A stretch of 64,000 nt of DNA from Nitrososphaerota archaeon (lineage in GTDB: Archaea > Thermoproteota > Nitrososphaeria > Nitrososphaerales > Nitrosopumilaceae), in NCBI GenBank assembly GCA_028867785.1, contig JAGWFS010000007.1, positions 1-64,000 of the forward strand, written 5' to 3'. The notes under the pieces are model-generated. The model worked only from the letters and a program-made list of their open reading frames with translations, did not search any database and was not told the DNA's origin. The position numbers were made by a program, and so were the translations under genes. How positions within the stretch are numbered: the stretch's first letter is position 1; each line of letters begins with the position of its first letter. Shown here one piece after another: positions 5,867-10,717 of this stretch.

Positions 5867-7582
5867 CTATCCGTGCGACATGTCATCAAGTGCATTTTTT
5901 CGAAGTATCTTTTTTCCGCTCTTGACTACTATCAATGGGTTGGCGTTTTCATAATCTGTAGGTAGTCTTACTGCGGAAATGCTTCCTTCCAGAACATGTC
6001 TTGGTTTGTCCAAGTTTGTATCTGTCCAGAAGCAGACTTGCTTATCACATAATATGATGCAATCCTCTATTGTCTGGCCGCTGTTTCGTATTCTGATGTG
6101 CGTGCTTGCATCCTGGACAAATTTTTCTATTGTAAAATGATATTCCCTTGCAATCTTCCTGGCTACCTTGGTCTTGACAATCCAAGTTATTATGCCAACG
6201 GCTCCGGAGGCTATGACTGATGTTATTACTCCTTCTAAGACTCTGTTGTCAAGATCACTGTTTGCAGGAGGATTTGGTGTAGGTTGTGTGAGGTTTGCTG
6301 GTTGTTCCTGTTTGACAGTTGGATTGTGGAGGTTCTGGTACCTGAGAATTCCTGACAGGTCGTTATTTATGGAGCTTGTAGTCATGGTAACATTGGATAT
6401 TATGCCTCTGGGATCTTTTATTACTATAAACTGCTGATATTCGTTCTGAGTCAGAACAACACTGTTTAATGTTACACCATCGGCCGCAGTGAAATCAAAT
6501 TCTACGTTGATCTGCTGAGAAGGATTCGGGCCTTGCGCATTTGACACAGGAAATGTAGCATTTGACTTGGGTGGCGTAGTGTTTGACCCAGATGGGGAAA
6601 TACCTGATACCGATGACGCATTGTTCAATGTTTTTTGCGTACCTGTGGATTGTAAAGAAGACAGTGGAGTTGCCGATGCTTCGTTTGACGGGTTGCTTAT
6701 TGTCTCGCTTGCAAAAACTGCAGAGACCCGGTATGTATAGGTGGTTCCAGTAGTCAGTCCATCAATAGTATATTTCGTATTAAGACTGACCGTATTGTCC
6801 TCAATGGACACATACACTCCAGATGCCTGCTTCCATTCTATTTTGTAACCTGTGATAACCTGTCCGTAGGTCTGCTCCGGGGCCAGCCAAGATAGGATAA
6901 TCTGTGTGTGAGATGTGGCAACTGCAATAAGCGGTGCAGGGACAGAAGTCGATATCTGATGATTATTCTGGTATGTGATAACGTTGTTTAAATCGCTATT
7001 TATCGACTGGGCTGTTTGCATGCTGTTGGAAATTATGCTTCTTGATTCAATTTTTGTGAGCAACTGTCCATAGTCTATCTGCGTCAGCACAACTCCATAC
7101 AGCGTTGTTCCGTCCGATGGCGTAAAGTCAAACCTTTCATTTACTGCAGGTGAGGAGCTTGGACTGGATACTGCTTGTGTTGAGGTTGTTGTTGGAGTTG
7201 CAGATGCCCATTTTGATGGGTCAGTTGTGGAATAATCAGAATATACCGCAGAAACTCTAAAAGTATATGTAGTTCCAGTCTTGAGTCCTGTCACAGAATA
7301 AGTGGGAAAAGTGCTTCCGGTGTTTGCCATTATTGGATCAAAAACACCCACCCCGACCATCTTTTCAATCTTGTACCCTATGATTGCTTTGCCATAGTTT
7401 TGTGATGGCGGCAACCATGTTAGAGTTATTTGTGTTGGTGATACCGCAGTAGCGTTTAGGTCTGTCGGGGTTTCTGTAGTGCTGGTAATTGCATAAGCAT
7501 TCTCTGACGTGACTGCACAAACTGCTACAAGTATGACAGATAATGTTATGATTGTGAAACCATGTCTAGATTTTATGTCCAT
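5867..7582 (-). CDS. FN3-containing single-pass surface protein with cytosolic tail
   Basis: 571 residues. Signal peptide at 1-32 (ending NAYAIT), then two fibronectin type III domains (about 36-130 and 210-305, each with the TYTFRVSAV/TYTYRVSAV strand). Each FN3 is followed by a repeated module of about 60 residues (FDFTPSDGTTLYGVVLTQ and EFDFTAADGVTLNSVVLTQ). A transmembrane helix lies at about 455-478, followed by a cytoplasmic tail of about 90 residues rich in beta strands with two cysteines. This is a type I-like topology with duplicated ectodomain units; it could be a receptor or adhesin. Function inferred only from architecture. Confidence 0.72.
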   Translation of the reverse strand: MDIKSRHGFTIITLSVILVAVCAVTSENAYAITSTTETPTDLNATAVSPTQITLTWLPPSQNYGKAIIGYKIEKMVGVGVFDPIMANTGSTFPTYSVTGLKTGTTYTFRVSAVYSDYSTTDPSKWASATPTTTSTQAVSSPSSSPAVNERFDFTPSDGTTLYGVVLTQIDYGQLLTKIESRSIISNSMQTAQSINSDLNNVITYQNNHQISTSVPAPLIAVATSHTQIILSWLAPEQTYGQVITGYKIEWKQASGVYVSIEDNTVSLNTKYTIDGLTTGTTYTYRVSAVFASETISNPSNEASATPLSSLQSTGTQKTLNNASSVSGISPSGSNTTPPKSNATFPVSNAQGPNPSQQINVEFDFTAADGVTLNSVVLTQNEYQQFIVIKDPRGIISNVTMTTSSINNDLSGILRYQNLHNPTVKQEQPANLTQPTPNPPANSDLDNRVLEGVITSVIASGAVGIITWIVKTKVARKIAREYHFTIEKFVQDASTHIRIRNSGQTIEDCIILCDKQVCFWTDTNLDKPRHVLEGSISAVRLPTDYENANPLIVVKSGKKILRKNALDDMSHG

Positions 7583-9565: not shown

Positions 9566-9710
9566 GAACTAGATGCGTAATATGCGATTAAAAACAATTA
9601 CTACATATTTGCCACAAAAATGTTGAAAGCCTCCGTGAGTTCAAATATGGAGACTTTTCACAGGCGTGGAAATTGACATATTTTTTGTTGCAAAAACAGC
9701 TAGAATTGAT

Positions 9711-9718
9711 TTATAATT
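9711..9718 (+). promoter_or_regulatory. TATA box for the 9738 gene and ribozyme transcript
   Basis: TTATAATT, centred 24 bp before the ATG at 9738, fits a leaderless promoter. Because no other obvious promoter precedes 10043, this one probably also transcribes the hammerhead and the next gene. Confidence 0.5.
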
Positions 9719-9737
9719 TTTCAGCCAACTAGAGTCC

Positions 9738-9965
9738 ATGACAGCAATACCAGCCCTTGAAAAAATTCAAGGCTCAAAATGTAACACATGTTTGCATGAA
9801 GGCGAACTAATGTGTGGAACATGCGGAATCACTTTTTGTACAAAACACATGCTATCTCACACAAAAAACTGCAACAACTATCGTGCAGTTATCAGGGAAA
9901 TACTTCGGGATGATTTTACATATGCAGCACATCAAGTCTGCGAGGCGGTCTTGAGAATCGCATAG
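9738..9965 (+). CDS. Small zinc-finger protein (AN1/B-box-like)
   Basis: 75 residues. The cysteine-histidine pattern CNTCLHEGELMCGTCG ... FCTKHMLSHTKNC gives seven to eight zinc ligands arranged like AN1 or B-box fingers. A shorter relative lies at 50438-50623 (CKVCSTIGDWHCYECS, FCSTHFHSHKD). Probably an RNA-, DNA- or protein-binding adaptor. Its stop codon directly precedes, and may take part in, the outer stem of a hammerhead ribozyme. Confidence 0.7.
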   Translation: MTAIPALEKIQGSKCNTCLHEGELMCGTCGITFCTKHMLSHTKNCNNYRAVIREILRDDFTYAAHQVCEAVLRIA

Positions 9966-10029
9966 GACAAGTCCCCTGACGAGTCCGTGAGATGCGGACG
10001 AAACAACAGGTGTTGTCGGGATGAATCTA
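9963..10029 (+). ncRNA. Hammerhead ribozyme, type I
   Basis: All conserved core residues are present. Core CTGACGA is at 9976-9982 and GAAA at 10000-10003. The cleavage triplet GTC is at 10015-10017, with cutting expected after C10017. Stem II: 9983-9987 with 9995-9999 (GTCCG/CGGAC, 5 bp, 7-nt loop). Stem III: 10003-10007 with 10012-10016 (closing A-U pair plus CAAC/GTTG, 4-nt loop). Stem I: 9971-9975 with 10018-10022 (GTCCC/GGGAT, one G-U). An outer helix TAGG/TCTA (9963-9966/10026-10029), separated by internal loops, could give the loop-loop contact. Both ends exit through stem I, making it type I. It lies immediately after a stop codon and ends at the Shine-Dalgarno of the next gene. Confidence 0.9.
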
Positions 10030-10042
10030 GGAGGTGAAAGGA

Positions 10043-10717
10043 ATGGAAAAACAACCAATGGAACAGGAAGAAAGACTGGCTACAAATGAGAATAAAAAAC
10101 TCAGCGTCAAACTCGCACCATGCCTTGCTTCAGGCACCCTTGCCGTGATGTTAATCGCAAGCGGCTTTGGATTTGCCTGGGCTGATACTGGAGTCACAGG
10201 CTCCGGCGCGGCCATAAAGGCAACTGATGCAATAAAAAACAATCCAACTGCAATGAGTATTCTTGAAAATATAGAATTGTTCAAGCAGAGATGGAACTCA
10301 TACCAAGGAGCACAAGCTGTTCAGGATCAGCAGAACAAAGTAGTAGAGCAGCAACGGGCACTTGCAAACGAGTACCTGCAAAATGATCTTAGCAAAATGG
10401 AAAATTCTAATGATCAAACGACACCTCAGCACGCATTTGCAAACTTTGTAAGTACCGTCAATACCTCGACGCAGGGAGTCTTCACGGATGAGTTTAACTA
10501 CATGCAAGAAAAAATCCAGGAAGCAACTGCAGCAAAGAACAGCATACTGCAAAATGGAGGAACAATGGATCAGGCTCTTCAAGCATTCAACAATGCCGCC
10601 TCCACCCATAAGGATCAGCTTGTAAGTGTCAACAACGAGTTGAACGTCAAATACCACCTTGCAAACCAGGACGTGCAAAGTCTGTTTGACAAGTGGGGCC
10701 AAATTTCACGAAACTAG
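10043..10717 (+). CDS. Secreted helical protein led by a strong Shine-Dalgarno
   Basis: 224 residues from ATG 10043, chosen because AGGAGGTGA at 10029-10037 gives a textbook Shine-Dalgarno spacing; a GTG at 10034 lies inside that motif. A signal anchor is at about 27-48 (ending GFAWADTG). The rest is predicted helical and Gln/Asn-rich. The segment from NNPTAMSILENI to the end is homologous to the middle of the 27631-30180 protein (shared pattern F-x-EFN-[YF]-MQ, then Q-GG-x-x-[DQ]QA, then NLNV-x-[YH]-LA). Its mRNA would be freed by the upstream hammerhead. Probably extracellular; role unknown. Confidence 0.72.
   Translation: MEKQPMEQEERLATNENKKLSVKLAPCLASGTLAVMLIASGFGFAWADTGVTGSGAAIKATDAIKNNPTAMSILENIELFKQRWNSYQGAQAVQDQQNKVVEQQRALANEYLQNDLSKMENSNDQTTPQHAFANFVSTVNTSTQGVFTDEFNYMQEKIQEATAAKNSILQNGGTMDQALQAFNNAASTHKDQLVSVNNELNVKYHLANQDVQSLFDKWGQISRN

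Follow-up and report, generated by a model that had tools for sequence, protein, structure and literature searches.

Positions 9971 to 10022 of a 64,000-nucleotide stretch of Nitrososphaerota DNA (contig JAGWFS010000007.1, forward strand; here called the window) almost certainly form a complete type I hammerhead ribozyme, located between a small zinc-finger gene and a gene for a predicted secreted protein. Its retention with little change at one position in 24 species suggests that the cells use it to divide a single two-gene transcript into separate messages.

A hammerhead between two co-directional genes

On direct reading, the type I consensus core (C3U4G5A6N7G8A9 ... G12A13A14 A15.1 ... 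U16.1H17) was found at 9976-9982, 10000-10003 and 10016-10017, in the consensus layout of three helices round the core, with stem I open and stems II and III closed by loops (Table 1). This bears out the initial annotation, which had described a type I hammerhead with every core base and three helices. Its predicted cleavage after 10017, its 25-nt leader before the ATG at 10043 and its placement of the element between the zinc-finger stop codon and the Shine-Dalgarno site of the downstream gene were correct as well. An outer stem I helix that it had also proposed was not conserved among orthologs and was dropped.

Table 1. Features of the ribozyme locus (window coordinates)
Feature	Position	Strand	Details
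TATA-like promoter element TTTATAATTT	9710..9719	+	before the zinc-finger gene; conserved
Upstream gene	9738..9965	+	ORF; 75-aa zinc-finger-like protein; UAG stop 9963-9965
Stem I, 5' strand (G)UCCC	9971..9975	+	pairs with 10018-10022
Stem I	9972-9975/10018-10021		UCCC/GGGA plus G9971-U10022 wobble, 5 bp
Catalytic core C3 U4 G5 A6 C7 G8 A9	9976..9982	+	CUGACGA
Stem II	9983..9999	+	GUCCG/CGGAC with 7-nt loop UGAGAUG; strands 9983-9987/9995-9999
Core G12 A13 A14	10000..10002	+	GAA; invariant
Stem III	10003..10016	+	ACAAC/GUUGU, loop AGGU; strands 10003-10007/10012-10016; first pair A15.1-U16.1
Cleavage-site nucleotide C17	10017	+	GUC; scission predicted between 10017 and 10018
Predicted 25-nt leader of downstream mRNA	10018..10042	+	contains stem I 3' strand and Shine-Dalgarno GGAGGUGA (10030-10037)
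Downstream gene	10043..10717	+	ORF; 224-aa protein, predicted secreted or membrane-anchored, largely helical

The product of the upstream gene showed weak B-box/AN1 similarity (Pfam). GATT(T/A)ATAATTT precedes the zinc-finger ATG in 20/20 orthologous loci, and this ATG lies 28 nt after the first base of the TATA-like element, a distance that suggests a leaderless start. The downstream protein, annotated from the outset as secreted, indeed looks so, having a hydrophobic N-terminus that ends in AWA. Its AlphaFold model was all-helical and of low confidence (pLDDT 37.6). Among named sources, the Thaumarchaeota metagenome assemblies REEA19, TA_9 and 13_1_40CM_4_38_7 held the nearest relatives of this protein.

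Detection of the element depended on the model that was used. The Rfam model Hammerhead_1 (RF00163) gave the site 22.2 bits against a gathering cut-off of 34, a score that is a curator's threshold and not a mechanistic feature; the site is therefore invisible at Rfam's threshold. Across the window, Rfam at gathering score returned tRNAs only, and RF00163 rose above its cut-off in 0 of 300 genomes in the order. Membership in the RAGATH-1 hammerheads (RF03152) was rejected, with 14.8 bits against a cut-off of 56.3 (E 8.1). As Rfam missed the site at gathering score, a clade-specific model was needed. Searching the whole 2.5-Mb genome with model R3, a covariance model made from 49 hammerheads of virus contigs only, recovered the ribozyme as the single clear match (61.6 bits, E 1.2e-14; next match E 0.8), a result that is partly dependent, since the virus contigs had been chosen by a motif resembling the stem II and core of the window and were aligned with the broader model R2. 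Stems I and III were absent from that motif. The covariance-model search proposed in the initial annotation fell short at the Rfam cut-offs, and the viral model supported the assignment. With a strict descriptor, this site was the only match in the window, and 300 simulated 64-kb windows of the same dinucleotide content gave no match.

Conservation of the ribozyme and its locus

Model R1, built from orthologs, gave one strong match per genome (73 to 85 bits) in 20 of the genus's 37 genomes and in four genomes from a second genus. In all 24 species the ribozyme occupied the same intergenic place, downstream of the zinc-finger gene (truncated by a contig end in one genome) and upstream of the secreted-protein gene. 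A close ortholog of the secreted protein was present in exactly the 20 ribozyme-bearing genomes of the genus (fragmented in G036), and the zinc-finger ortholog in 19 of them, the remaining locus (G025) being situated at a contig end. The other 17 genomes of the genus had neither this gene pair nor the ribozyme. More distant paralogs of the secreted protein occur elsewhere, unaccompanied by a ribozyme. Ten loci were inspected over their full length; in 10/10, one side was occupied by shared methyltransferase and regulator genes, after which came the zinc-finger gene, the ribozyme and the secreted gene. A fibronectin-type-III-like secreted gene (window 5867-7582) was also near the ribozyme locus in 10/10 loci inspected. 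Weaker R1 matches at the family level, near 20 bits, were rejected after reading in G121, G211, G221, G129, G170 and G177, as they lacked an intact core and helices (G220 and G037, with the same score, were left out of this reading), and a match in G360 was spurious.

Mean pairwise identity was 85% for the ribozyme, 55% for the zinc-finger coding sequence and 54% for the start of the secreted coding sequence. The distance from the predicted cleavage site to the ATG was 20 to 30 nt in 24/24 loci. The initial annotation had named unconserved core bases in relatives as grounds against its reading; the core was conserved in all 24 orthologous loci and invariant apart from N7 and H17. In A1, C3 to A6, G8 and A9 were invariant and core position 7 was A, C or U, as the consensus allows, while the cleavage base in relatives was C or A (GUA in five), so that the H17 rule holds in all. 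These comparisons indicate that the ribozyme is under strong purifying selection in the 24 species.

The helices were maintained as well. Across families, the UCCC/GGGA pairs of stem I were either kept or altered on both sides, two-sided changes were seen at 3/5 stem II pairs, and stem III was maintained while its length and loop differed between species. In a set of 27 sequences, some of them from other families, standard pairs made up 98.9% of pair cells and 10/14 pairs had two-sided changes, and the covariation score was reached by 0/500 shuffles; with virus contigs added, 299 cells had two-sided changes versus 80 in shuffles, although A2 and A3 were fitted to the hammerhead structure and these counts lean towards it. 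Inspection of the alignments showed conservation of loop II (UGARANN in relatives) and of A-rich flanks, and revealed no Watson-Crick pseudoknot or conserved outer helix that could represent a contact between loop II and stem I. By thermodynamic folding alone, the minimum-free-energy fold was not the hammerhead for the window or for many orthologs. The folding program favoured a competing hairpin of CUGACGA with UUGUCGGG, which was rejected, as its covariation was not above that of shuffles.

The element could in principle be catalytically weak or dead and be kept as an intercistronic hairpin for RNA stability, protein binding or ribosome spacing. Such a role would agree with the failure of thermodynamic folding to favour the active form and with the very short stem III of several species. 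However, the bases that catalysis needs but that lie outside the helices are invariant, and variation at positions 7 and 17 stays within what catalysis allows. Neither constraint would be expected of a plain hairpin, and we therefore consider this explanation very unlikely.

Probable splitting of a two-gene message

Splitting of a bicistronic mRNA in cis is the probable role of the ribozyme, a reading to which we give considerable confidence. The zinc-finger and secreted genes would be transcribed together from the conserved promoter upstream of the first gene, and the hammerhead would sever this putative bicistronic transcript in cis, on the 3' side of C10017. This would leave the ribozyme body, with hairpins II and III and a 2',3'-cyclic phosphate, at the 3' end of the zinc-finger mRNA, and the secreted-protein mRNA would start with a 5'-hydroxyl and a 25-nt leader carrying its Shine-Dalgarno site. 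Once separate, the two messages would be uncoupled in their stability and translation, and we infer both that cleavage occurs in the cell and that message separation is the selected trait. As an alternative to the joint transcript, the secreted gene might have a promoter of its own within the zinc-finger gene. A contact of the stem I/loop II type normally speeds the hammerhead reaction. Counting against the reading, stem I is only 4 to 5 bp long here and has no conserved outer helix, stem III is about 3 bp in several relatives, whose ribozymes may be slow, and energy folding fails to return the hammerhead for the window and for many orthologs.

We also considered a regulated switch, in which cleavage is controlled by a bound protein (perhaps the upstream zinc-finger product) or by a ligand and sets downstream expression. 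The zinc-finger gene, the ribozyme and the secreted gene do form one inseparable unit, conservation from stem I up to and including the Shine-Dalgarno site exceeds what catalysis needs, and folding prediction gives an alternative pairing that hides the core. That pairing, however, lacks covariation support, no aptamer-like domain is attached, and the same type of ribozyme adjoins unrelated genes elsewhere. A model in which cleavage unmasks the Shine-Dalgarno site was rejected, since accessibility before and after cleavage showed no consistent change. A regulated switch thus seems improbable to us, and control through the zinc-finger product is conceivable but unsupported.

Related hammerheads and known systems

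Further hammerheads were found between co-directional genes in the same order and phylum (L070-L075, L216-L218). They lie between cupredoxin-like and DsbD-like secreted or membrane genes in L070 and L072, and between other secreted genes in L071, L216 and L218. In tailed viruses integrated into thaumarchaeal genomes, the hammerhead is located between tail-terminator and tail genes (L074 and L075), before head genes (L073) or after a probable head gene (L217). The name cupredoxin-like and the gene names of L216, L217 and L218 were given from sequence alone; the viral gene names of L073-L075 and the DsbD-like gene of L070 carry further support. Virus contigs showed the same layout, with a median of 30 nt from the cleavage site to the next start (start found in 31/38). 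A group of hammerheads from Thaumarchaeota and viruses goes unseen at the Rfam threshold. Two IMG/VR contigs (L136 and L110) carried eight and six hammerheads per stretch, ahead of successive genes. In virus contigs and in L216 and L218, the upstream gene often terminated at a stop codon located in stem I or in the 5' flank of the ribozyme.

Since the intercistronic hammerheads of tailed viruses share the layout of the host element, the latter was probably acquired from such viruses, or exchanged with them, and then retained by the host lineage. No direct viral donor was found, as neither the exact pattern of the genus form nor the downstream protein had a match in the virus contigs. The closest layout being that of virus contigs and proviruses, the element might also be read as a recent viral or mobile-element relic without host function. 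This reading is highly implausible, as the ribozyme is orthologous, syntenic and single-copy in two genera, is strongly conserved over large protein divergence, and shares its flanking chromosomal genes among the ten inspected loci. Beyond message splitting itself, we propose only tentatively, and with more doubt than belief, that archaeal cells kept a virus-type hammerhead in a chromosomal operon where it replaces protein ribonucleases in messenger maturation, and that the zinc-finger protein may feed back on the cut.

The element resembles Hammerhead_1 (RF00163) in its core, its three-helix layout open at stem I, its GUC/GUA triplet and its GUCC/GGAC stem II, but differs in having a stem I of 4 to 5 bp without a conserved outer part and a conserved UGARANN loop II. 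By analogy, the hammerheads of haloviruses HF1 and HF2 are the best precedent for message splitting. As described by Perreault et al. 2011 (PMC3088659), the hammerhead there lies 13 nt ahead of a start codon, and the mapped 5' end of a polycistronic transcript is at most three nt from the cleavage site. The archaeal setting and the position a few nucleotides upstream of a start codon are thus shared with the present element; in contrast, the HF1/HF2 hammerheads are viral, whereas here the operon is that of a host, and they are placed among high-salt variants with short core insertions near C3, which are absent here.

Bacterial prophage hammerheads flanking single genes are likewise intercistronic in polycistronic RNA, and tested examples self-cleave in vitro; they are phage-linked, however, and vertical inheritance at an orthologous host locus is not reported for them in the accessible parts of the two sources (PMC3088659, PMC6155905). 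Such retention at an orthologous host locus over many species is described in PMC3088659 for the mammalian and amniote hammerheads of C10orf118 and RECK, but these are eukaryotic and intronic, whereas the present element occupies an intergenic gap of an archaeal operon. This class of ribozyme, its occurrence in archaea and the intercistronic hammerheads of prophages are thus known, and vertical inheritance of a hammerhead within an operon of an archaeal host appears to be new. In the portions of the literature that we covered, no report was found of such a hammerhead or of hammerheads in Thaumarchaeota; a survey with the words "hammerhead ribozymes in archaeal" in its title (cited in PMC4926735) fell outside this scope. 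The biological roles of prokaryotic hammerheads are an open question according to PMC6155905, partly because most known cases sit in prophages beside poorly conserved genes. The host locus described here has a fixed gene pair, a nearly fixed distance from cleavage site to start codon and a ribozyme under strong purifying selection in 24 species, and ribozyme function is therefore open to ordinary experimental testing.

Hammerhead-like elements with UUGAUGA or UUGAUAA instead of CUGAUGA were also observed in L076 (5221-5281), L211 and L213 (genomes G381, G380 and G379), where they precede a small ORF of zinc-finger type and a molybdopterin oxidoreductase. In these elements, the change C3U, combined with G8 or with G8A, would preserve the tertiary pairing between C3 and G8, in the form of U-G or U-A.
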